A stretch of DNA of 64,000 bases, taken from positions 5,928,001-5,992,000 of the forward strand of contig CP110972.1 of NCBI GenBank assembly GCA_028869255.1, given 5' to 3'. Below, in pieces: positions 32,389-47,418 of the stretch (the stretch's first letter is position 1; each line of letters starts with the position of its first letter). This stretch comes from Pseudomonas poae (GTDB lineage: Bacteria; Pseudomonadota; Gammaproteobacteria; Pseudomonadales; Pseudomonadaceae). A model generated the notes under the pieces. The model saw only the letters and a list, made by a program, of their open reading frames with translations, was not told where the DNA came from and ran no database searches. Made by a program: the position numbers and the translations under genes.

Positions 32389-33048
32389 TTAGAGCGCGAT
32401 TTCAAAAACTACTTTGCCAAGACGATTTTTGATTTGGTAAGCGTCTTCATTGATTTCCGAATTTTTAAATAGGTCGCTTCGGTCAATAAAGCTGGGAAGC
32501 TCATGCATCCAGATTTTATTCGTTATTGGGCTGTTTTCTTCGCAATACCAGCCTTCACCAACCTGCGCATTGAGCAGTCTATAGATGTTTATTTTACGCT
32601 TTTTGTCCTTGCTAACTTTTGACAGCTTTTTAATTGGGGTTTCCAGCTCAAACTGCAGTTTCAGCACTGCTTCAGCAGTTGAGTTTATGATCTCCACCGC
32701 TGCGTTGTCACTCTCTTTCCTTATTGCAATAGCAACGAGTGCCAGGCGTAATTCTTCCAGCAGTTTTTTTTCCTGACTGGGACGATCCAGAGAGAGGAAT
32801 TGTTTGAAATCAAAGTTCTCTATAAAAATGTTTGTCACGCCTAAGACGTTATCAAATAGATCTTCGTCGGCACGTGGGCCCAGTGAAACAACTATTTTAC
32901 TGCTACCGTTTATCTTGACCTTAGGCAACAACGTCATGAATATCTGGGTAATATGATGACTCAGTTGACGTATACGAACACCGTCTGTCAGAGCGGATGC
33001 ATCACTTTCTTGCAGAGTAAGCATGTTCAGATTCATTGCGGTGCTCAC
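32389..33048 (-). CDS. Putative immunity protein for Rhs2
   Basis: 219 residues if the GTG at 33048 is used, 215 from the ATG at 33036; neither has a clear ribosome site, so translation may be coupled to rhs2, whose stop ends 9 nt upstream. No signal peptide or membrane segment, hence cytoplasmic, consistent with neutralising a nuclease. I recognise no family. The gene is visibly AT-richer than the Rhs body, as usual for immunity genes. Role is assigned only from its position immediately after the toxin-encoding 3' end. Confidence 0.65.
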   Translation of the reverse strand: MSTAMNLNMLTLQESDASALTDGVRIRQLSHHITQIFMTLLPKVKINGSSKIVVSLGPRADEDLFDNVLGVTNIFIENFDFKQFLSLDRPSQEKKLLEELRLALVAIAIRKESDNAAVEIINSTAEAVLKLQFELETPIKKLSKVSKDKKRKINIYRLLNAQVGEGWYCEENSPITNKIWMHELPSFIDRSDLFKNSEINEDAYQIKNRLGKVVFEIAL

Positions 33049-33057
33049 GTCGAAAAA

Positions 33058-36000
33058 CTAACGATTATCAGGCATGCCGTACAATTTAAGGTAGCCATCT
33101 CTTGTGTCAACCTGCGGTAACGGGTTTTTGTGGATCGGTGAAGGCATGTTGCCGTTATTTCTCGCCGCATGTTTGTCCGTGATCTTTTGCTCGGTAGCTT
33201 TGGCTTGAAGTCGTGTCTTGTTCTTTTCGACGATCACTGCCTTGTAGCGCCCAGCTTGAGGCTTGTTCAGCGCATTGACCTGTTGGTTGGCACGCGGTGA
33301 TGTGCCATTTTTATTTAGTGGCCGCCCGCTGATCCCAGGCTTCATCATTCGTCCTGTTTTCGTATCAACGATGACATAGACGTGATTAGGATTTTTGCTC
33401 GCATGGCTGTTGCCGTGGACTTTTCCACTGCCTCCACACGTGAGACCTAACGGATCGATCCAGCCAAGGGGGTTGTCGGCATAGAGGTAGGTATTAATGC
33501 CCCCCGCCAACCCAATCGGATCCGGCGTAGTAAACCGCCCCACATCCGGATCATAAAACCTGAACGTATTGAAATGCAGCCCCGTCTCCCGGTCCAGGTA
33601 CTGACCCTGAAACCGCAGATTCTGCTCTTCAATGTAATAGGGCTCGCGCACCTCTTCCAGCGTGTTGCCCCACACCCGATAAGTCGCCTGCCAGACGCTA
33701 TGCCCGTCAGCTTCGGTCAGCTGTTCCGGCAAGCCGTTCAGGTCATTGTGGTAGTAACGAATCTTTTGCAGGGGTCCAACGCCATCGACCCGCGCCAGGG
33801 GTTGGTAGCCTTCATCTTCATACACGTACAGGCTGGTCTGGCTGTGTTTGTGCTCTTGCAATAAACGCAGCCCATCCCATGTGAACCGGGTTTCGCCCAA
33901 TGGGTAGCCATCACTGCCATGCTCGGCTTTCTCGATGCGTCGGCCCAGCGGGTCGTAGGCCATCCTGACCACGCTGCCGTTTTCATTGCGCACCTCGATC
34001 AGCCGGCTTTCAGCGTCATACGCAAACCGCTGCACACCGCGCTTGGCGCTGCGTTTTTCGATCATCCGGCCAAACGCGTCGTAGCGGTAACGCTTGTCTT
34101 GATAGGTCAGCAGCTTGTTGTGCACCACCAGCCCGGCGCCGGGTTGTGGGCCGTCCAGCAGGTTGGCGGCGGCGTCGTAGCTGAAGGTTTCGCGTTGGCC
34201 GTGCAGGCTGTCCTGGCTGGCGATGATGCGGCCGGTGGCGTCGTAGTGCAGCAATTGGCGATGTTGCGCGGTGGGTTGCTGGTCGAGTTTGCCGATCAGG
34301 TTGTCGGCGGGGTCGTACTCGAATTGTTTTTGCGCGGCGGCCGGCATCAGCGATGGCTGACCCGCAAGGCGCCGTTGGCGCGAGCGCAGGCGGCCGCTGC
34401 GGTCGTATTCGCTGCGGGTGCTGAGCTGGCCCTGGGTGCGCAGCACTTCGCGGTGCAGGCGGTCGCGCTCGAAGTCGCTGATCACCTGGCCGTCGAGGTT
34501 GATTTGATGCAGATGGCCGCTGCCGTAGTACAGGCGATTGAGCCAGCGGCCGTCCGGCAGTTGGCTCTGGATCAGGTTGCCGAGTTCGTCGTAGTGATGC
34601 TGCAGGTTACCGGCTGAACTCTGTTCGGCCAGCAATTGGCCGAGGGCGTCGTAGGCAAAACCCAGGGCTTGGGCATTGCCTTGCCGGTCCGTGAAGGTGA
34701 CGGCAGTGAGTTGATCGACCGCATCGTAGCTGTAGTCGGTGCGGCCATCGTCGGTGGTTTTGGCAATCAGCCTGCCGACCGCATCACGTTCCAGTCGGTG
34801 GACGATGGGCGCGGGTGGCGTCTCGGGCACGACCGCCAAGCCATTGCCATACGGCGCCGGCACGGCAATGACCGCTGTGACGTTGTCGAGCGCGTCATAG
34901 TCGTAGCGTTTGGCGCTGCCGTCGAGGTCTTGCTGTTCCGTCAGCCGATCCCCGGCATCCCACGCAAACCGATAGCGTTCACCGTTCTCGTTGATCAGCG
35001 CTTGCAGCCGACCGTAGCTGTCGTAGCCGAACTGCACCTGCCGCCCATGGGCGTCGGTGCGTTGGCGCACCTGGCCACGCCGGTTGTGCTGGTAGAGCGT
35101 GGTGTGCCCGGCCGGGTCGGTATAGCCCACCAATTGCCCGCTGACATCACGCTGGAAGTGTTCGGTGCGCCCGTCCGGCAATTGGCTGCTCAGCAACCGC
35201 CCCTGGGCGTCATAGCTGAACTGGGTGCGCTCGCCCAGGGCATCGGTGATGACCTGCAGATAACCGCGCTCGTCGTAACTGAAGCGCGTGGGGTAGCCCG
35301 AGCAATCGACATGTTCGACCAGTTGCCCGAACGGGTTCCAGCGCAGCGTTTTGCTTTTGCCGGTGGCATCGATAATTTCTACCGGCTGGCCGTGAGCGTC
35401 ATAGCGGTAGCGGGTGACGTAGCCCAGCGGGTCGGTCTCGGCGATGCAGTTGCCGCGTGGGTCGTAGCGATACTGCCAACGGTTGTCGGCGGCGTCGGTT
35501 TCCACCCGCGGCAGGGCCCAATGCTCCAGCCACAAGGTCGAATCGCTGCGGCCCAGCGGGTCGGTTTCGCCGATCAGGTTGCCGCTCTCATCGTAGCTGT
35601 ATGCATAGCGCCCACCTTGCGGGTCGGTGGCGCTGAGCAACTGGCGCTCGTCGTTCCACTCGAACAGCCAGGTCTGGCCAAGGTTGTCGCTGTACTGAAT
35701 GATCTGGTGCTGGGTGTTCCAGTGCCGGCTGCTGACGCGTTGCAAGCCGTCGGTGATGCGCGTGAGACCGGCCAGCAGGTCGTAGTCGAACAGGTAAGAA
35801 TCGCCCTCATCGGTCCAGTGGCGCACTACCCGCCATTGCGTCCCTTCAACCAACGCCCAGTCATAGAAACAGCGCAGCCCGGTCGGCAACTGATGCTCGA
35901 CCATTCGGCGCCCGGCGTCGTAGGCGAAACGCCGCTGTACCTGGCCGGTGGCATCACGCACCTCAGCCAGGCTCCCCGCAGTGTCATAGCCATAGCTGAC

Positions 36001-37452
36001 GAGCACTTCACGGCGTTGGTCCGGGTACAGGCGCTCAATGCGGGTCAGGTGGCCCTGATCGCGGATCAGCTCAACCTGTACCAGGTCGAAGGTATCGCGC
36101 AGCCGCGCCAGGCGTCCCGTGGCGTCATAGTCGAGATGGATGCGGTTGTCGTTGCGGTCACCCAGTTGGCTCAGGCGAAGCCGTGATGCATGGGCCGGCG
36201 CAGGTTCGAACAGACGGTACAGGCCGTCGTCGCTTTCGATCAGCAATTGCCCATTGCGATGGCGCCGCACCGCGAGCCCTTCGCCGGCGCTGAACACCGC
36301 GCCGCCCAAGGGGATGGAGCCCATGTCGATCGGCCGACCCTGCTCATCGGTATAGACCAGTGTTTCGCCGCCCTCGGGGTGCGGCTGGATGTCGACGCAG
36401 ACCTCGTAGGCCACGCTCCAGCCAGCGCCGAACAGGCTGCCTTGGCGTTCGTCGCGGCTGTTGTAGAAGCGCTGCCAGTCGATAGGCAGGATGCCGGGCA
36501 GCACGAAGTCCAGGTCTTCGACATCGCCCAGCACCTTGGCGCCGGTCGCGGCATGTACCGGGTTCGACGAGCCCATGGCCGCGTTGGCCGCAGCCCCCAT
36601 CGCACTGCTGATGGCCATCGAGGTAGCGCCGCTGACCAACATGCACGGCAGCTTGCTGAAGAACTTGCCCTTGCCGCCCTTGAGCATCAACAGCGCCGTG
36701 ACCGCCAGGCCGACGCCCGGGGTCTTGCCGCTGCGGATTTCACGCACCACCACCGAGCCGCCGCCAATGGTCACGTTGGAGGAAATAAGTCCGGATGACA
36801 CCACCGTGGCATCGCAGGTACTGCGGTCACCGCTGCGCACCGCGGGTTGGCCGTTGATCGTGACCTTCTCCGAACCTTCGGCAAGAAACTGCGGCGGCAT
36901 CGGCGGGTGTTTCATGCAGACCACGAGGTCCAGCGGCTTGGGCACTGCGCCCGGCGCGGGTGTCGCGACGGTGGGGCGCCACATCTGCGAAAAAAAGCTC
37001 TGGGCCATGTCCAGAAAGCCGGGTTCCGGCTCAGGCTCGGATGCTTCCAGCTCGGTACCTGCCGGTGTGACATGGGAGCTGATCGCCCCGGCGGCGCGGG
37101 CAGCCGGGATGTTATTGGTGAGGGTGTTGGTGGAGCCGGTGAGAATGTTCGCCTGCACCGTGGGCGGAAACAGGGCGTTGCCAAAGGCGTCGCATATTTT
37201 GGTCAGCCCTTTGTCGGCCCCGCTCTTGCTCATGGCAAGGCCGACAATCGTACCCACCACCGCGCCCAGCAGGAAGCAGCCGAGGCCGCCGGTGGCCACG
37301 GTAATGCCGGTGGCAGCCACCACGGCGGCGGTCGCCACCGCAGTGATCGCGATATTGGCCGCCACCTCCAGCACACCGCCGAGGATGTCGGCCATCATGG
37401 AGGTGTGGGCTAGTGCATCGCCCATGCGGGCGGCCCAGAGTGCGTCAGGCAC
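33058..37452 (-). CDS. Rhs2: prePAAR/PAAR-Rhs T6SS effector with a GIY-YIG/URI-like nuclease tip
   Basis: 1464 residues, intact. Order: prePAAR motif AARMGDALAH (residues 7-16), hydrophobic helices about 20-80, a Pro/Glu linker, PAAR domain about 170-250 (HPPMPPQFLAEGSEKVTING, SGDRSTCDATVV), a second hydrophobic part about 258-295, then YD repeats making the Rhs shell (about 310-1310), the core end FRFYDPDVGRFTTPDPIGLA and autocleavage motif NPLGWIDPLGL. The last about 130 residues are unique: HVYVIVDTKTGRMMKPGISG with a later TEQKITDKHAARNN resembles a GIY-YIG/URI nuclease core (Y...Y-x-GIS, then Glu). It would be loaded on VgrG by the Eag chaperone and degrade DNA in a competitor. It is followed by its immunity candidate. 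Confidence 0.88.
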   Translation of the reverse strand: MPDALWAARMGDALAHTSMMADILGGVLEVAANIAITAVATAAVVAATGITVATGGLGCFLLGAVVGTIVGLAMSKSGADKGLTKICDAFGNALFPPTVQANILTGSTNTLTNNIPAARAAGAISSHVTPAGTELEASEPEPEPGFLDMAQSFFSQMWRPTVATPAPGAVPKPLDLVVCMKHPPMPPQFLAEGSEKVTINGQPAVRSGDRSTCDATVVSSGLISSNVTIGGGSVVVREIRSGKTPGVGLAVTALLMLKGGKGKFFSKLPCMLVSGATSMAISSAMGAAANAAMGSSNPVHAATGAKVLGDVEDLDFVLPGILPIDWQRFYNSRDERQGSLFGAGWSVAYEVCVDIQPHPEGGETLVYTDEQGRPIDMGSIPLGGAVFSAGEGLAVRRHRNGQLLIESDDGLYRLFEPAPAHASRLRLSQLGDRNDNRIHLDYDATGRLARLRDTFDLVQVELIRDQGHLTRIERLYPDQRREVLVSYGYDTAGSLAEVRDATGQVQRRFAYDAGRRMVEHQLPTGLRCFYDWALVEGTQWRVVRHWTDEGDSYLFDYDLLAGLTRITDGLQRVSSRHWNTQHQIIQYSDNLGQTWLFEWNDERQLLSATDPQGGRYAYSYDESGNLIGETDPLGRSDSTLWLEHWALPRVETDAADNRWQYRYDPRGNCIAETDPLGYVTRYRYDAHGQPVEIIDATGKSKTLRWNPFGQLVEHVDCSGYPTRFSYDERGYLQVITDALGERTQFSYDAQGRLLSSQLPDGRTEHFQRDVSGQLVGYTDPAGHTTLYQHNRRGQVRQRTDAHGRQVQFGYDSYGRLQALINENGERYRFAWDAGDRLTEQQDLDGSAKRYDYDALDNVTAVIAVPAPYGNGLAVVPETPPAPIVHRLERDAVGRLIAKTTDDGRTDYSYDAVDQLTAVTFTDRQGNAQALGFAYDALGQLLAEQSSAGNLQHHYDELGNLIQSQLPDGRWLNRLYYGSGHLHQINLDGQVISDFERDRLHREVLRTQGQLSTRSEYDRSGRLRSRQRRLAGQPSLMPAAAQKQFEYDPADNLIGKLDQQPTAQHRQLLHYDATGRIIASQDSLHGQRETFSYDAAANLLDGPQPGAGLVVHNKLLTYQDKRYRYDAFGRMIEKRSAKRGVQRFAYDAESRLIEVRNENGSVVRMAYDPLGRRIEKAEHGSDGYPLGETRFTWDGLRLLQEHKHSQTSLYVYEDEGYQPLARVDGVGPLQKIRYYHNDLNGLPEQLTEADGHSVWQATYRVWGNTLEEVREPYYIEEQNLRFQGQYLDRETGLHFNTFRFYDPDVGRFTTPDPIGLAGGINTYLYADNPLGWIDPLGLTCGGSGKVHGNSHASKNPNHVYVIVDTKTGRMMKPGISGRPLNKNGTSPRANQQVNALNKPQAGRYKAVIVEKNKTRLQAKATEQKITDKHAARNNGNMPSPIHKNPLPQVDTRDGYLKLYGMPDNR

Positions 37453-37497: not shown

Positions 37498-37779
37498 TCA
37501 GTAAGGCATGCTCATCAATGCGGTTCTGAGGCGTTTGATCAGCCGGGGGTCCTCAAGGCAGTCGGCAGGTCGCACGTTGTCGAGGGCGGGCACTTTGCGG
37601 TCGATCCACCACAACCCTTCCTTTAGCCCTCGCTTGCCACGCAGTACCACGGCCAGGTCAAGATCACCGCCCATGGCTTTCGCAAGGGTGTGCGCGTCGT
37701 CGTCCAGATAGTCTTCTCGGTACAGCGCTACCGTGCTTTGCCAATCGGCATCGCCGGGGTATTCGTCTTCAAGTGGCAT
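37498..37779 (-). CDS. Putative immunity protein for Rhs1, resembling the Xre/MbcA/ParS antitoxin toxin-binding domain
   Basis: 93 residues from the ATG at 37779, 2 nt after the rhs1 stop, with AGGA inside the rhs1 end. The C-terminal half, GLWWIDRKVPALDNVRPADC then LEDPRLIKRLRTALMSM, follows the pattern W...P.aL.g..P.d.L......v...L of the DUF2384/Xre-MbcA-ParS toxin-binding domain (PF09722), the natural partner of RES toxins. The DNA-binding HTH of those antitoxins is absent; the N-terminal 50 residues are acidic (MPLEDEYPGDADWQ). It could therefore cap a RES active site without autoregulation. Assignment is by eye. Confidence 0.72.
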   Translation of the reverse strand: MPLEDEYPGDADWQSTVALYREDYLDDDAHTLAKAMGGDLDLAVVLRGKRGLKEGLWWIDRKVPALDNVRPADCLEDPRLIKRLRTALMSMPY

Positions 37780-37781
37780 GG

Positions 37782-40700
37782 TCAAAATCCTGCGAAAGAA
37801 ATTAAGTTGCTGCCGGTTGGGTTACGTGCGGATGGCGCGAGAATTCCATCATAGCCATTGGCTTTTGCCCAACTGCCGATCTGGTGCGTTTGTGTGTACT
37901 TGTTACCCGTAATGCTTTTGAGTGACACGCCCAATTGTTTGCGCACGTCGGCGCGCGTCAAGTCCAGCACGTTGTTGAGTTGCACCTTTTTGCTGACCAG
38001 CACGCGCGTCGACAGGTCGACGCCCCAATGCGTGACTTCGCCCAGTGCGGTCTTGCGTGAGTTGGCGCCATATACGCCGCCCAGACCTTTATCCGTATAG
38101 CGGTGTCGGGAATCCACATTCCACTTGTGTGCCTGCCAGGTCGTGCCGATCCGTCCCGGTTCCTCGAAGCGGTAAACCGTACGGTTGACCTTGCGCCCCT
38201 TGGGTGGGCTTGAACATTTCATCAGGCCCAGTGGGTCGGCCCAGCTCAAGGGGTTGGGGGCATACTGGTAGAGGTTGAGGCCGCCGGCCAGGCCAATCGG
38301 ATCGGGTGTGGTGAAGCGCCCGATGTCCGGGTCGTAAAAGCGCAGCGTGTTGTAGTGCAGCCCGGTCTCGCGGTCCAGGTACTGGCCCTGGAAACGCAGG
38401 TTCTGCTCTTCGATGAAGTAAGGCTCGCGCACTTCCTCGACGGTAGTGCCCCACACCGCATGGCGCGCCTGCCAGACAGTATGGCCATCACTTTCAGTCA
38501 GCCGCTCCGGCAGGCCGTTGATGTCGTTGTGGTAGTACCGAATTTTCTGCAGGTCACCCAGGCCATCCACGCGGGCCAGCGGTTCATAGCCTTCATCGGC
38601 GTAGAGATACAGGCTGGTTTGCTGGTTGCAGTGTTCCTGCAACAGTTGCAGGGCATCCCAAGTGAAACGAGTCTGGCTCAGTTGCACGCCGTTGCGGTCG
38701 CGGGTGGTTTTGGCGATGCGCCGGCCGAGCGGGTCGTAGGTCATCTCGACCACCGAGCCGTCGGCGTTGTGCACCTGTGCCAGGCGCTGCTCGGCGTCAT
38801 AGCTGAAGTGCTGCACGCCGCGTCGGGCGCTGTGTTTCTCGATAACCCGGCCGAAGCCGTCGTAGCGGTAGCGCTTGTCCTGGTAGGTCAACAAACGGTT
38901 GTTGGCGACGGGGCCGAAGCCGTCCAGCAGGTTGGCCGCCGGGTCATAGGCGAACGCCTCGCGCTGCCCCTGCAGGCTGTCTTGGCTGGCGAGGATGCGT
39001 CCGGTTGCATCGTAATGCAGGAGTTGACGGTGTGTGCCATCGGGCCGACTTTCCAAGCGCTCGACCAATTGGTCGCTGGCGTCATAACCGAACTGCGTCT
39101 GAGACGCCGGTTGCAACCCCGCTTGGCCTCGCAGGCGGCGCTGGCGCGCACGCAGGCGGCTGCTGCGATCGTATTCGCTGCGGGTGCTGATATGCCCCTG
39201 GGTTTGCAGGACTTCACGGTGCAAGCGGTCGCGTTCGAAGTCGCTGATCACCACACCGTCCAGATTGATCTGGTGCAGGTGACCGCTGCCGTAGCGCAGG
39301 CGGTTGAGCCAGCGACCGTCGGGAAGCTGGGTCTGGACCAAATTGCCCAACTCGTCGTAGTGGTGCGCCAGGCTGCCGGCGGCCGTTTGCTCAAGAATCA
39401 GCTGGCCGAGGCGGTCGTAGCCAAAGCCGAGCTTTTGTTGCGCGCCGTCACCTCCGGTATAGGTGATGGCGGTGACTTGATCGAGTGCGTCGTACTGATA
39501 CTCGGTGCGCCCGTCCGTCGTTTGTCTGGCGGTCAGGCGACCGCCGGCATCGCGCAGCAGATCATGCACGATGGGCGGCTCGGTCCCCGCCGACGCAAGC
39601 GCCTGCACCTGGGTGACGTTATCCAGCGAGTCGTAGGCGTAACGCTTGAGGCTGCCGTCCAGGCGCTGTTCCTGGGTCAGTCGGTCGCCTGCGTCCCAGT
39701 CGAAGCGGTAGCGCTCACCGTTTTCGTTGATCAGGCTTTGCAGGCGGCCGTAGGCATCATGGTGCAATTCCACGCGGCGACCATGGGCGTCTGTGCGCTG
39801 GCGTAACAAGCCGTTCGGCGCGTGCTCGAAGTGTGTCGTTTGCCCGGCCGGGTCGCTGTAGCCGATCACCTGTCCGCTGGCGTCGCGCTGGTAGTGTTCG
39901 GTGCGGCCATCGGGCAATTGCTTGCTGACCAGGCGACCCTGGCTGTCATAGGCGAAAACGGTACGCTCGCCGAGGGCGTCGCTGCTGGTGTGCAACAGGC
40001 CGCGCTCGTCGTAGCGCAACTGGGTGCTGTAGCCCGAACAATCGGTGTGCTTGCTCAACTGTCCAAGCGGCGTCCATTGCAGGGTCTTGCGCTTGCCGGT
40101 GGCGTCGATGATTGCCACGACCTGGCCGTGGGCGTCGTGACGGTAGGCGGTCACGTGGCCCAGCGGATCAGTCTCGCTGATGCAGTTGCCTCTCGTATCG
40201 TAGCGGTACTGCCAGGTGTTGCCTGCCGCATCGGTTTCCGCCAGCGGCAGCGCCCAATGTTCCAGCCACAAGGTCGACTCGCTGCGGCCCAGCGGGTCGA
40301 GCGTAACGCTCAGGTTTCCGGCCTCGTCGTAGGCAAACTGGTATTGCCCGCCGTTCGGATCGGTAGCACCCAGCAATTGGTTTTCAGTATTCCACTCAAA
40401 CGCCCAGGTACGTCCCAGCCCATCGACCGACTCAATGATCTGGTGCGCTGCGTCCCAGCGGCGTGTGCTGGTCCGCTCAAGCCCGTCGGTGATGCGCGTG
40501 ATACCGGCGTCCAAGTCATAGCTGAACTGGTAGGTGTCGCCCGCATCGGTCCAATGCCGCACCACGCGCCACTCGCGCTCGTCGACACATGCCCACTGGT
40601 AGAAGCAGCGCAAGCCGGTCGGCAGTTGGTGCTCGACCATGCGCTGCCCGGGGTCGTAGGCGAACCGGCGCTTCACCTGGCCGTCGGACTGGCGCACCGA

Positions 40701-42198
40701 CGCCAGGTCGCCACGGCTGTCGTAGGTGTAATGCATCAGCACTTCGCGGCGCTGATCGGGGTACAGACGCTCGATCCGGCTGACACGCTGCGGCCAGAGG
40801 GCGTCGTAGCTCAGTTCGGCGCGAACCAGGTCGAAGGTATCGCGCAGGCGCAGCAGGCGACCGCCGTCGTCGTAGTCGAGGTAGATGCGGTTGTCGTTGC
40901 GGTCCCCCAACTGGCTCAGGCGTAGCCATGTTGCGTCCTGTGGCGCGGGGTCGAACAACCGGTAAAGGCCGTCCGCGCTCTCGATCAGCAGTTGGCCATT
41001 CAGGTGGCGCCGTACGCTGAGTCCTTCGCCGGCACTGAACACGGCGCCGCCCAACGGGATGGCCCCCATGTCGATGCGTCGGCCTTGTTCATCGGTGTAC
41101 AGCAACAACTCGCCACCGTCTGGGTGGGGCAGCCGTTGCACGCTGACTTCGTAACCGACGCTCCAGCCAGCACCGAACAGACCGTTACGGCGTTCGTCGC
41201 GGCTGTTGTAGAAGCGCTGCCAGTCGATGGGCATGATGCCGGGCAGGGCGAAATCCAGCTCTTCGGGGCCGCCGAGCACCTTCGCACCGGTGCTGGCATG
41301 CACAGGGTTGGATGAACCCATGGCCGCATTGGCCAGTGCCCCCATGGCCTGGCTGACCACGAGCGAATTCACCCCGGCCAGCAGCATGCACGGCAGGTTA
41401 CTCAGGAATTTGCCCTTGCCGCCCTTGAGCATCATCAAGGCCGTGACGGCCAGCCCGACCCCAGGGGTCTTGCCGCTGCGGATCTCGCGCACGACCACCG
41501 AGCCTCCGCCGATGGTCACATTCGGTGAAATCAGGCCGGACGACACCACGGTTGCATCACAGGTACTGCGGTCACCGCTGCGTACGGCGGGCTGGCCATT
41601 GATCGTGACTTTTTCCGAGCCTTCGGCCAGAAACTGCGGCGGCATCGGGGGGTGCTTGGTGCAGGTCACCAGGTCCAGCGGCTTGGGGACCGCGCCGGGC
41701 GCCGGGGTGGCCACCGTGGGGCGCCACATCTGAGCGAAAAAGCCTTTGGCCATGTCCAGGTAGCCCGGCTCCTCGCCGGGCTCAGGCTCCGTCGTTTCGG
41801 TGCCGGATGGCTCAACGTGCGACGGCACGGCGCCCGCTGCGCGCTGCGGGAGTGGTGTTGATCAGGGTGTCTGTAGAACCACTGAGAATGGTCGCCATGA
41901 CGGTGGGAGGGAACAGTGCATTGCCGATCCCCTCGCACATGTCACTCAAGCCTTTGTCGGCTCCGGTCTTGCTCATGGCCACGCCGACGACCACCCCGAC
42001 CACTGCCCCCAGCACGCACGCGCCAAGCCCGAAGGTGGCGACGGTAATACCGGTAGCCGCCACCACCGCCGCTGTCGCCAGCGCGGTAATCGCCACATTG
42101 GCCGCCACCTCCAGCACGCCGCCGAGGATGTCCGCCATGACCGAGGTGTGGGACAGCCCGTCGCCCAGGCGCGCAGCCCAGAGCAGCGCGTCAGACAT
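37782..42198 (-). CDS. Rhs1: prePAAR/PAAR-Rhs T6SS effector with a RES-domain tip; frame broken near residue 120
   Basis: About 1470 residues when joined. The first part (42198 to about 41845) holds prePAAR AARLGDGLSH (residues 8-17) and hydrophobic helices; the rest (to 37782) holds PAAR, second hydrophobic part, YD repeats, FRFYDPDIGRFTTPDPIGLA and DPLGLM. The frames are offset at the GC run 41836-41847; two more bases give PAARAAGA as in rhs2. The C-terminal about 140 residues differ from rhs2. HRYTDKGLGGVYGANSRKTA, then LGEV, matches the RES pattern R-Y-x3-G...[LV]Y-x-S...TAL-x-E, and GYDGILAPSARNPTGSNLISF matches its second conserved block. RES toxins degrade NAD+. Start codon ATG 42198, 12 nt after eagR. 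Confidence 0.85.
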
Positions 42199-42210: not shown

Positions 42211-42645
42211 TCACTGAGGTACGTCGAACACGAGCGAGCCCTTGATCGTCGCCCAGTGTGCGGCTTCGGCATCCCCCAGCGTGTCCGGTTTCACGTAACT
42301 CAAAGCCATCATCTTGCGCGTGCCCGGCAGCACTAACGCCAGCTGATATTGGAAGACCTTGTCATTGCCCTTGCTGAACTGGCTGCGCAGCTCGATAGCT
42401 TCCACTTCCTGGGCGGCGCCCAGGCGCACGCTGACGCTTGGCTGGCAGCGCAAATCCTGTACCTGTTGCTCCAGGCGCTTGAGCTGGTCGTCGAAGTTGC
42501 TGTGCAGGGTTTCGCCTTCATTCAGAAGGCTGCGGCTGATGATCAGGGAAGTGCCCAATTCGGGGAACTTGAGGATATTGATCGTCGCGTCCTGCAGCTC
42601 GGTGACCGGCAGTTGAAACTGGAATTCGTTGATTCGGTACGTCAT
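42211..42645 (-). CDS. eagR: EagR-type DUF1795/DcrB-like chaperone for Rhs effectors
   Basis: 144-residue cytoplasmic protein of the DUF1795 family. MTYRINEFQFQLP, then DATINILKFPELGTSLIISR and LNEGETLHSNFDDQLKRLEQ, is characteristic of Eag chaperones, which bind the prePAAR and N-terminal membrane helices of PAAR-Rhs effectors and help seat them on VgrG. Its place between vgrG and rhs1 fits exactly. No second copy precedes rhs2, so it probably serves both effectors, whose N-termini are alike. Confidence 0.9.
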   Translation of the reverse strand: MTYRINEFQFQLPVTELQDATINILKFPELGTSLIISRSLLNEGETLHSNFDDQLKRLEQQVQDLRCQPSVSVRLGAAQEVEAIELRSQFSKGNDKVFQYQLALVLPGTRKMMALSYVKPDTLGDAEAAHWATIKGSLVFDVPQ

Positions 42646-42660
42646 GGAAAACAGGTCTCG

Positions 42661-44601
42661 TCAGGAGCTTTTAGGCGCGGGGAAAATGGCTTTGATATTG
42701 GCGTCGATGCTTTTTTTGATGCCCTGGCCATCGGGTTGGGCGTCGGGGCCCTGACCGTTGTTCAGGTGCAGCACACCTTTGGTGTTGAACTGGGCATCGC
42801 CGCTGGCATAGAAGCTGATATTCACGCCGGTGAGGTTGATCTGCCCGCTGGCATTCAACTCCAGAATGCTTTCACCGCAGACCAGGCGCAGGTTTTCGCC
42901 CACCTCGATGACGTAGCTCTGGCTGATGCTGTCGGTCTTGCGCTGGCCCACCAAGAGCACGTCCTCCTGTTTGACGATGCGCGTACGGTTATTACCGATG
43001 GTCACCGTCTCGTTGTGGCCGATGCTCTTGTTGCGGTCATGCCCAACGGAGTGGCTTTCATCCACCTCCACCACGATGTCCTGGTTGCGCTCGGCGTGGA
43101 TGTACAGCTGCTCCAGCCCCTTCTTGTCCTCCATGCGGATTTCGTTGAAGTTGGCCGGTGTGCCGCCTTTGTTGGAGCGGCTTTTCATGCCGCTCTGGGT
43201 CGCGTTTTCCGGCAGGTCGTAAGGCACGGTCTGCTCGGCGTTGTACACGCGCCCGGTGATGATTGGCCGGTCCGGGTCGCCTTCCAGAAAGCTCACAATC
43301 ACTTCCTGGCCGATCCGTGGAATCTGCATCGAGCCCCAATTCTTGCCGGCCCAGGATTGCGAAACACGAATCCAGCATGAGCTGTTTTCGTTGGATTGGT
43401 CGTGGCGGTCCCAGTGGAAGTGCACCTTTACGCGGCCGTACTGGTCGGTCCAGATTTCCTCGCCTTTGGGGCCGACCACCAGGGCCGTCTGCGGGCCTTT
43501 GACGATGGGGCGGTAGGTGCTGGCCAGCGGCCGGAAGCTTTGTTGGGCGTCGATGCAGGTGAGGCTGCTTTCGAACTGCGCAGAACCCGAGCCGCCGCCG
43601 CTTTCCAGGCTTTCCTGGGTGATGTAGTAGCGAATGCCTACGATCAGGTATTCGCGGTTCTGGTCCTGGCGGCTGAAGCCGGTGAGGCTGAACAGGTGGC
43701 CCGAACCCAGGCCCCGTGCGTTGCCGCTGAACTCGATCTGTTCGTGCAAGGTTTGCAGGGCTTCGATGCGGGTGCGCGCATAGTGTTCGCCGTCGGCGCT
43801 TTGCACGTAGGTGCCGGGGTAGTCGTACAGCGGGTAGTCGCCGGCGGTGTGCGGGCGCGGCATGGCCGAGCGCACGTCGATGCTGGCGCTGGGGCGCTGG
43901 AAGTCGTAGTCGTTGAGCTCCAGCGAACCCGGCTGCACCTGCTGCGCGAGGTGCCAGTTGTGCATGTGGTCGCGTTCGCGCTGTTGCTCGTCCTTGGGGT
44001 AGTACGGGATCGACGCGTAGCCCGCCACCGTGGTGTGCGCGCCATAGGCGTCGGCCAGTACCAGCACATGGCGGTCCTGCTCGTGGCGGAAGAAGTAGTA
44101 GATGCCTTCCTGTTCCATCAAGCGGCTGACGAAATCGAAGCTGGTTTCGCGGTACTGCACGCAGTATTCCCACTCGCGGTACGGCCGGCTCAGGGCGTCT
44201 TCGAAGTCCGAGAAACCCAGGTCGCGGAACACCTGCTTGATGATCTGCGGGATGCTCAGGTTCTGGAAAATCCGGCAGTCCGAGGTACGGCTCAGCAGCC
44301 ACAGCCATGGGCGCAGCGTCACCTGGTAACTGGCGAACTGGCCCTGGTCGATGCTCTGGCTGCACTGCGCGACGATGCCGTGAAAGTGCCGCTCACCCCC
44401 GTCGGCCAGTTGCAGGCCCACGCTCATCGGCTTGCCCAGCAACTGGTTGAGGTCGATGTTGGCGTCCAGCGAGGTCAGTTGCAGCTCATAGGTGAACAGC
44501 CGCCCCAATTCTTCACCGCCGCCCATTTGATTGAGCAGCAGCACATCCGGCCCGAGGGGGCTGGTGATTTTGGCCAGGCGTGAGGCTTGGTTGAATAGCA
44601 T
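42661..44601 (-). CDS. vgrG: VgrG spike protein of the T6SS
   Basis: 646-residue spike (TssI) that trimerises at the Hcp tube tip and carries PAAR-Rhs effectors. gp27/gp5-like N-terminal part about residues 10-370 (LGRLFTYELQLTSLD, YCVQYRETSFDFVSRLMEQEGIYYFFRH), then OB-fold with GRVKVHFHWDRHDQSNENSS, SWAGKNWGSMQIPRIGQEVI and VSFLEGDPDRPIITGRVYN, then the DUF2345-like beta-prism region up to about residue 600. The tail after residue 615 is short, so it is not an evolved VgrG with its own toxin. It heads the cargo group vgrG-eagR-rhs1-imm1-rhs2-imm2. Confidence 0.95.
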   Translation of the reverse strand: MLFNQASRLAKITSPLGPDVLLLNQMGGGEELGRLFTYELQLTSLDANIDLNQLLGKPMSVGLQLADGGERHFHGIVAQCSQSIDQGQFASYQVTLRPWLWLLSRTSDCRIFQNLSIPQIIKQVFRDLGFSDFEDALSRPYREWEYCVQYRETSFDFVSRLMEQEGIYYFFRHEQDRHVLVLADAYGAHTTVAGYASIPYYPKDEQQRERDHMHNWHLAQQVQPGSLELNDYDFQRPSASIDVRSAMPRPHTAGDYPLYDYPGTYVQSADGEHYARTRIEALQTLHEQIEFSGNARGLGSGHLFSLTGFSRQDQNREYLIVGIRYYITQESLESGGGSGSAQFESSLTCIDAQQSFRPLASTYRPIVKGPQTALVVGPKGEEIWTDQYGRVKVHFHWDRHDQSNENSSCWIRVSQSWAGKNWGSMQIPRIGQEVIVSFLEGDPDRPIITGRVYNAEQTVPYDLPENATQSGMKSRSNKGGTPANFNEIRMEDKKGLEQLYIHAERNQDIVVEVDESHSVGHDRNKSIGHNETVTIGNNRTRIVKQEDVLLVGQRKTDSISQSYVIEVGENLRLVCGESILELNASGQINLTGVNISFYASGDAQFNTKGVLHLNNGQGPDAQPDGQGIKKSIDANIKAIFPAPKSS

Positions 44602-44759: not shown

Positions 44760-47418
44760 TCAATCGCTGAAGTCGTAGTGCAATTCATTATCCCGGCTGC
44801 TGATGCGCACTCCCGCCAACGGCTTGCCTTCGAGCATGCGCGTGAGGAACTCACGGCTCATGTCTGGCAGCAGGCTGTTGGTGAGGATGGTGTCGATCAT
44901 GCGTCCGCCGCTTTCGGTTTCGGTGCAGCGCGAGACGATCAGGTCGACCACTGCGTCGTCGTAGTCGAAGGCGACCTTGTGGGTCGTCTCCACACGCTTT
45001 TTGATGCGGTTGAGTTGCAAGCGAGTAATCGCCTTGAGCATCTCGTCGCTCAGCGGGTAGTACGGGATGGTCACCAAACGGCCGAGCAGCGCCGGCGGGA
45101 AAATCTCCAGCAGCGGCTGGCGCAGGGCCTTGGCGATTGCTTCCGGCTCAGGGATGTTCGCCGGGTCTTTGCAAACCTGGGAAATCAGCTCGGTACCGGC
45201 GTTGGTGGTCAGCAGGATCAAGGTGTTCTTGAAGTCGATCACCCGGCCTTCGCCGTCTTCCATCACGCCCTTGTCGAACACCTGGAAAAAGATTTCGTGC
45301 ACATCGGGGTGGGCTTTTTCCACCTCGTCCAGCAGCACCACGCTGTAGGGTTTGCGCCGTACCGCTTCGGTCAGCACGCCGCCTTCGCCGTAGCCGATAT
45401 AGCCCGGTGGTGCGCCCTTGAGGGTCGACACCGTGTGGGCTTCCTGGAATTCGCTCATGTTGATGGTGATGACGTTCTGCTCGCCGCCGTACATGGCTTC
45501 GGCTAGGGCCAGCGCGGTTTCGGTCTTGCCCACGCCGGAGGTGCCGGCCAGCATGAACACGCCAATCGGCTTGCTCGGGTTGTCGAGCCCGGCGCGGGAG
45601 GTCTGGATGCGCTTGGCGATCATCTGCAGGGCGTGGTCCTGGCCGATGATGCGTTTTTTCAGGTGCTGGTCGAGGTTGAGCACCGTCTCCAGCTCATTGC
45701 GCGCCATGCGGCCCACCGGGATACCGGTCCAATCGGCAACCACCGAGGCCACGGCCTGGTAATCCACGGTCGGCAGGATCAGCGGGGTCTCGCCTTGCAG
45801 GGCGGTGAGGCGTTGTTGCAGGTCGACCAGTTGGGCGCGCAACTCGTCGTTGCCGCTGTCTACCACGCCGGCTTTTTCACGCAGGGTGGCGCGGGTAGCG
45901 AGCAACTCGTCCACCAGGGTTTTCTCTTCGCCCCAGCGGCTTTCCAGGGTTGCCAGGCGTTCACGCTCAGCAACCAGCAAGGCTTCGCTATTGCTCTGAC
46001 GCGCACCAATGGCGATGCCGATGGCATGCTCGCGGGCGATGATTTGCAGCTCGGTTTCCAGCGCTTCGATGCGACGGCGGCTGTCGTCCACTTCGGCCGG
46101 CACGGCGTGCAGGCTGATGGCGACGCGGGCGCAGGCGGTGTCCAGCAGGCTCACGGATTTATCCGGCAACTGGCGTGCAGGAATATAGCGGTGCGAGAGC
46201 TTCACCGAGGCTTCCAGGGCTTCGTCGAGGATCTGCACCTGGTGGTGTTTTTCCATGGTCGAGGCCACCGCCGCGCATCATCAGCAGCGCCTTGTCTTCC
46301 GACGGCTCCGCCACCTGTACGACCTGGAAGCGGCGGGTCAGCGCCGGGTCTTTCTCGATGTGTTTTTTGTACTCGGCCCAAGTCGTGGCGGCCACGGTAC
46401 GCAAGGTGCCACGGGCCAGCGCGGGCTTCAGCAAGTTGGCCGCATCACCGGTCCCGGCAGCGCCACCGGCACCCACCAAGGTGTGGGCTTCGTCGATAAA
46501 CAGGATGATCGGTTTGGGCGAGGCTTGAACGTCTTCGATGACTTGGCGCAGGCGCTGTTCAAACTCGCCTTTCATGCTGGCACCGGCCTGCAGCAGGCCC
46601 ACGTCGAGGCTGCGCAGTTCCACATCCTTGAGCGCGGGCGGTACGTCACCGGCGACGATGCGCAGGGCGAAGCCCTCAACCACGGCAGTCTTGCCGACAC
46701 CGGCTTCACCGGTGAGGATCGGGTTGTTCTGGCGCCGACGCATCAGGATATCCACCAACTGGCGAATCTCTTCATCACGGCCCACGATCGGGTCGAGCTT
46801 GCCGCTGCGCGCCTGTTCGGTCAGGTCGACGGTAAAGCGCTTGAGCGCTTCCTGCTTGCCCATCGCACTCGGCGCCATCGCGCCGCTGGCCTCGCCCGGC
46901 ACTGCGCCGGCGTTGAAACCGTCGCTGGCGCTGAGGGCGTTTTCCGGCGAGTCGCCGACGTATTCATCAAAGCGTTCGCTCAGGGCTTCGGCCTTGATCT
47001 TGTCGAACTCGGACGACAAGCCCAGCAGCGCATGGCGCAGGCTCGGCGTCTTCAGAATGCCGAGCACCAGGTAGCCGGTACGCACCTGGCTTTCACCGAA
47101 CATCAAGCTGCCATAGACCCAGCCGCGCTCCACGGCTTCTTCCACGTGCGACGACAGGTCGGTGATCGAGGTCGAGCCACGTGGCAGGCGGTCCAGGGCT
47201 TCGGTGAGGTCACGCGCCAGGCGCGCCGGTTCCACATTGAACTGGCGGATGATGCGGTGCAGGTCCGAGTCCTGCAGTTGCAGCAATTGGTGAAACCAGT
47301 GGGCCAGTTCCACGTACGGGTTGCCCCGCAGTTTGCAGAACACGGTGGCGGCTTCGATGGCCTTGTAGGCCACGCTGTTGAGTTTGCCGAACAGTGCGGC
47401 GCGACTGATTTCACCCAT
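44760..47418 (-). CDS. tssH: T6SS AAA+ ATPase TssH (ClpV), with an apparent +1 frameshift
   Basis: About 885 residues when joined. Cytoplasmic ClpV disassembles the contracted TssBC sheath. N-terminal Clp_N domain about 1-150; first AAA+ with [11 protein letters not shown] near residue 215 and [11 protein letters not shown]; middle coiled-coil M domain; second AAA+ with [12 protein letters not shown] near residue 625; ClpB-type C-terminus. The frame is broken at the CC of 46268-46269 (plus strand): removing one base turns [10 protein letters not shown] into [16 protein letters not shown] and continues to the natural stop. ATG at 47418 overlaps the end of tssG by 8 bp. Confidence 0.93.

Follow-up and report, generated by a model that had tools for sequence, protein, structure and literature searches.

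The stretch of DNA analyzed here (the window) comprises 64,000 nucleotides of the Pseudomonas poae assembly GCA_028869255.1 (contig CP110972.1, positions 5,928,001 to 5,992,000), and all coordinates below are positions within it. On its minus strand the genes for VgrG, a candidate EagR-type chaperone, the Rhs protein designated here Rhs1, a protein of 93 amino acids (aa) and a second Rhs protein (Rhs2) with a Tox-URI2 tip follow one another in this order. The subjects of this work are the C-terminal tip of Rhs1 (37782..38222, minus strand), located downstream of a DPLGL motif, and the 93-aa gene (37498..37779, minus strand), which we regard, with a probability of about 0.8, as the toxic tip and the immunity gene of a type VI secretion system (T6SS) Rhs effector, the tip being a RES domain that would consume NAD+ and the immunity protein an inhibitor that would plug its pocket. 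The stop codon of Rhs1 at 37784-37782 is followed 2 nt further on by the ATG of the small gene (37779-37498), and an AGGA motif lies 8 nt 5′ of this ATG. The 2-nt spacing had been given in an earlier sequence-only reading of the locus, and the gene and both peptides quoted there were found where that reading had placed them.

The assignment of the tip to the RES domains is supported by profile, fold and conserved residues. The two RES blocks that had been recognized by eye at the end of Rhs1 were borne out by the hidden Markov model search proposed at the time: the tip matches PF08808 with an E value of 1.1e-13 and 52 bits against a curated cut-off of 23.2 (match at 37794-38114), by which a chance by-eye likeness was ruled out, and it is the sole PF08808 match in the genome (E up to 0.001). 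The tip has the ADP-ribosyltransferase (ART)-like RES fold, and the residues of the NAD+ pocket are conserved in the RES alignment, R36 in 42 of 43 rows and Y46, E57 and S126 in all 43, their equation with the pocket residues of NatT being a mapping by spacing. No match for the tip was obtained in NCBIfam, a single-sequence search of PDB sequences returned one non-RES match (E 0.66), and tblastn against plasmid and phage collections, bearing on a mobile-element origin, gave no match. The ratio of nonsynonymous to synonymous substitution rates (dN/dS) had a median of 0.043 in the tip (90 pairs) and of 0.121 in the immunity gene (63 pairs); the sample consisted of the window and 19 of the 20 other tip-bearing genomes, with the partial tip of genome G204 dropped and only unsaturated pairs with dS >0.1 used.

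The 93-aa protein had been described as bearing the toxin-binding pattern of Xre/MbcA/ParS proteins (DUF2384, PF09722) without a helix-turn-helix (HTH) domain. Searched by itself it showed no Pfam match at E up to 1 or up to 10, so that the PF09722 check suggested for it came back negative. An alignment designated A1, made of the window protein and 36 of 41 immunity homologues (three short and two longer ones dropped), yielded PF09722 matches in 20 of its 37 members, with a best E value of 0.0018, and PF09722 was the only Pfam family matched across them (E up to 10), so another known immunity family was rejected; in the four match ranges inspected the profile start position was identical. Imm51 did not appear among these Pfam matches either, the presence of its model in the library being unchecked. 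PF10391 was matched weakly in two of seven sequences (0.02 and 0.031), which was taken as noise, four of the seven matching PF09722 and two nothing. NCBIfam gave one match for the immunity protein at E 0.18 only, and the immunity profile had no match among PDB sequences. The model of the protein has the fold of the PF09722 toxin-binding domain, and 11 of its 12 Foldseek matches are chains of the MbcT-MbcA, ParT-ParS, NatRT, VPA0770-VPA0769 and P. putida Xre-RES entries. The DUF2384-like pattern, confined to about the C-terminal 55 residues, is thus real but remote.

No HTH family was matched in the window protein or in the other 36 rows of A1, in keeping with that part of the earlier description; the further statement that the antitoxin had been cut down to its toxin-capping half is imprecise, since a conserved N-terminal module of approximately 40 residues (LE..Y.GD..W) occupies the place of the HTH. 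Ten residues (E6, Y9, W15, A45, W60, L68, P73, C76, R85 and L86) are invariant in 68 of 68 immunity rows, of which E6, Y9 and W15 fall in this module, outside the PF09722 matches, and R85 and L86 sit in the C-terminal helix. The C-terminal helix of NatR is the part that enters the toxin pocket. With an Rhs tip as toxin and a partner in which no HTH family was matched, the pair is not a standalone RES-Xre type II toxin-antitoxin (TA) module.

Rhs1 has the features of PAAR-Rhs T6SS effectors: PAAR, RHS repeats and core, a DPxGL motif before the tip, and neighbouring VgrG and EagR-type genes. In this assembly its main open reading frame (ORF; 37782..41828, minus strand) encodes PAAR, DUF6531, RHS repeats, RHS core and the RES tip, and an N-terminal piece in another frame (41812..42198, minus strand) carries a prePAAR motif (E 0.0004, below cut-off). 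The chaperone candidate (42211..42645, minus strand) matches PF08786 DcrB (E 1.2e-19), which we take to be the DUF1795/EagR family, and the VgrG spike protein gene (42661..44601, minus strand) encodes Phage_GPD, Gp5_trimer_C and Phage_base_V domains. The effector cluster is adjoined by the T6SS genes for TssG, TssF, a sheath protein and an ImpA-type protein. Rhs2 with its Tox-URI2 nuclease tip (33058-37452, minus strand) is followed by a 219-aa gene (32389-33048, minus strand) for which neither Pfam nor NCBIfam gave a match at E up to 1 and which is probably the immunity gene of Rhs2.

The tip and the immunity gene are genetically paired. Of 398 genomes of the genus, 21 contain the tip and 32 the immunity gene, and by coordinates the two adjoin in all 21 tip-bearing genomes. 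In a genome collection, which shares species with the genus set and is not independent of it, an immunity-type ORF lies beside the tip at every one of 31 loci (24 from Pseudomonas, two from Erwinia and one each from Serratia, Winslowiella, Burkholderia, a Cellvibrionaceae metagenome-assembled genome (MAG) and a Phocaeicola MAG), with its first possible start at -14 to +3 nt relative to the stop codon of the toxin; in one of them (L109) the tip stretch contains an in-frame stop. Outside close relatives, profiles A2 (15 of 23 proteins used) and A3 (38 of 120 listed matches out of 639, the window and four loci) matched remote RES proteins; A2 (E up to 1e-4) had matches in 9 of 398 genomes of the phylum and A3 (E up to 1e-8) in 4 of 369 genomes of the class, the own genome included in both. 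RES domains 40-42% identical to the tip were also seen in the metagenomic proteins P0145, P0147 and P0150, named filamentous hemagglutinin in their source.

Immunity genes also occur apart from the tip. Eleven of the 32 immunity-bearing genomes have no tip, their immunity genes being whole in some cases and partial in others; the loci viewed were those of nine of the eleven and two loci of G204, which holds three immunity copies and a tip remnant. In L053, L062, L063, L065, L075, L078 and L079 immunity genes lie beside no tip or a broken one, in L075 behind a gene that is EagR-like by eye, and in L065 with a 199-aa gene on one side and the start of the next Rhs on the other. In L081 (1498-1962, minus strand) an orphan immunity-like protein, 38% identical to the query and with a PF09722 match at E 3.5e-4, is intermediate between the immunity family and canonical DUF2384; no RES neighbour was seen, and a nearby ORF is sigma-factor-like by eye. 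The only above-cut-off PF09722 match of the P. poae genome itself (G000:C1:2455038-2455190, minus strand) lies in a 78-aa frame and is a solitary DUF2384 gene or a fragment.

The sequence-only reading had further held that a chromosomal TA pair was recruited whole, for which we found no support. In an unrooted tree built from 70 of 71 rows (one removed by a filter), with 43 RES domains of the secreted type and 27 labelled TA, the secreted-type tips stand together, with two label changes; the join of the secreted rows has a support of 92/82 and carries a long-branch warning. The odd row, L117, was labelled TA by default, and a clear DUF2384 partner is missing from its locus (0.078). Since the secreted rows were picked by their similarity to the tip, the gene neighbours of the metagenomic members being unseen, and since the tree is unrooted, it provides no evidence of a single recruitment or of the direction this would have taken.

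We infer that the PAAR-bearing Rhs shell, in association with VgrG and EagR, would be carried by the T6SS and its C-terminal RES domain released in a neighbouring bacterium, where it would use up the NAD+ of the prey in the manner of MbcT and NatT. In the producer the immunity protein would shut the RES pocket, and by analogy with the known antitoxins that block a RES enzyme the producer is probably protected in this way. The likeliest chemistry of the tip is NAD+ phosphorolysis, favoured, though unproven, because the tip is near MbcT; the tip could also hydrolyse NAD+ or ADP-ribosylate a target. The tip might instead ADP-ribosylate a specific target, the activity reported for ParT, and be no bulk consumer of NAD+. 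RES toxins of one fold do vary in their chemistry: NatT and MbcT are phosphorylases, ParT acts as an ART, and ART activity is predicted for VPA0770 and glycohydrolase activity for RES-Pp (PMC12457610); we nevertheless hold this alternative to be unlikely.

Two further explanations concern the partner protein and the state of the locus. The best PF09722 score seen (21.5 bits) stays below the curated cut-off of 24.5 bits, 17 of the 37 members show no match, and the immunity model has a pLDDT of 73.7 and an hhalign probability of 33%. These values weigh against a DUF2384 relationship, and would suit a downstream protein that neutralizes the tip while being an unrelated small helical protein, its likeness to DUF2384 convergent or an artefact. 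PF09722 as the sole family in A1, with a shared profile start, the predominance of RES TA complexes among the Foldseek matches and a genetic partner that is itself a RES domain make this very improbable. In this genome, moreover, Rhs1 is not a single intact frame, a point on which the earlier reading was silent: near 41.8 kb it is broken into two ORFs that do not share a frame, whereas 18 of the 21 tip-bearing genomes have open Rhs frames of 1476-1488 aa. An AAA+/ClpV-like T6SS gene (44760-47418, minus strand) also consists of two overlapping ORFs in different frames, one with weak Clp_N and AAA matches and the other with AAA_2 and its lid, which brings the frame breaks in the cluster to two. 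The locus may accordingly be read as a decaying remnant whose pair serves as immunity only, and the 11 genomes with whole or partial immunity genes and no tip would agree with that. However, the tip protein is identical to that of the relative G372, which has an open 1476-aa frame (dN 0, dS 0.096), and two frame breaks within one cluster would also fit sequencing indels in the assembly, so that a remnant appears rather doubtful. The Rhs1 copy in this assembly may be a pseudogene or contain a sequencing error, an assembly problem being plausible because the neighbouring ClpV-like gene is in two frames as well.

The class of Rhs-RES effectors is already in print, while the nature of its protector seems to be largely unrecognized. 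The closest described system is the in silico pair Tfe2/Tfi2 of Pseudomonas fluorescens F113, likened here by its description in the available passages (PMC7970981, 2021): vgrG1a, EagR and two consecutive Rhs effectors follow one another in the same gene order, Tfe2, the first of the two, combines a putative RES tip with PAAR and an Rhs core, and the directly downstream gene encodes the 92-aa Tfi2 with "no homologues or recognizable features"; the second Rhs tip is a WHH nuclease in F113 and Tox-URI2 here. The earlier statement that no characterized Rhs effector with this pairing was known therefore holds for biochemistry in the literature found, and not for the class as such. BCAM2253 of Burkholderia cenocepacia, a PAAR-RHS protein with a RES C-terminus regarded as a putative NAD+ glycohydrolase effector, apparently has a tabulated immunity gene, its domain unnamed in the available passages, and differs from Rhs1 in its Burkholderia shell and linker (PMC6612558, 2019). 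A B. cenocepacia locus of our collection (L111) has a PF09722-like immunity protein (E 0.0016). In polymorphic toxins Tox-RES, a predicted RNase, has been associated with RHS and FilH repeats, with T6SS among the routes, as for the Rhs1 tip; in the accessible part of that survey its partner is tabulated as Imm51, and DUF2384 is listed for TA systems only (PMC3482391, 2012).

The MbcT-MbcA, NatT-NatR, ParT-ParS, P. putida RES-Xre and VPA0770-VPA0769 pairs differ from the Rhs1 pair in that they are standalone TA modules and have no Rhs shell; the P. putida Xre bears an N-terminal HTH according to the part of the source at hand (PMC12204516), whereas none was found in the present protein. The RES-like toxin EAT5 of an extracellular contractile injection system (eCIS) and its XRE-like immunity protein have been tested in E. 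coli, where loss of the C-terminal helix of the immunity protein abolished protection; by description in the available passages this pair resembles ours as a toxin of a contractile injection system neutralized by an XRE-like protein, and differs in belonging to an eCIS, not to a T6SS Rhs protein, and in having the immunity gene upstream of the toxin (PMC8213781, 2021). In the open-licence literature, covered in part, with subscription papers and preprints outside the scope, an Rhs-RES immunity protein was nowhere called DUF2384-like; the UniRef names of some immunity homologues already say DUF2384 or Xre/MbcA/ParS-like.

As a tentative extension, to which we give slightly less than even odds, the pair may represent a family of T6SS effectors in which an MbcT-like NAD+ phosphorylase, leaving ADP-ribose-1''-phosphate, kills or arrests the prey and is guarded by a distinct family of HTH-less DUF2384-like immunity proteins, whose conserved LE..Y.GD..W module would have a function of its own; one toxin-plugging domain would then serve both TA regulation and effector immunity. 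Through the assignment made here, a published "featureless" class of T6SS immunity proteins gains an identity, and its mechanism of neutralization becomes directly testable by analogy with the solved TA complexes. TA modules, eCIS cargo and Rhs effectors are linked in this way through one toxin/antidote fold pair.
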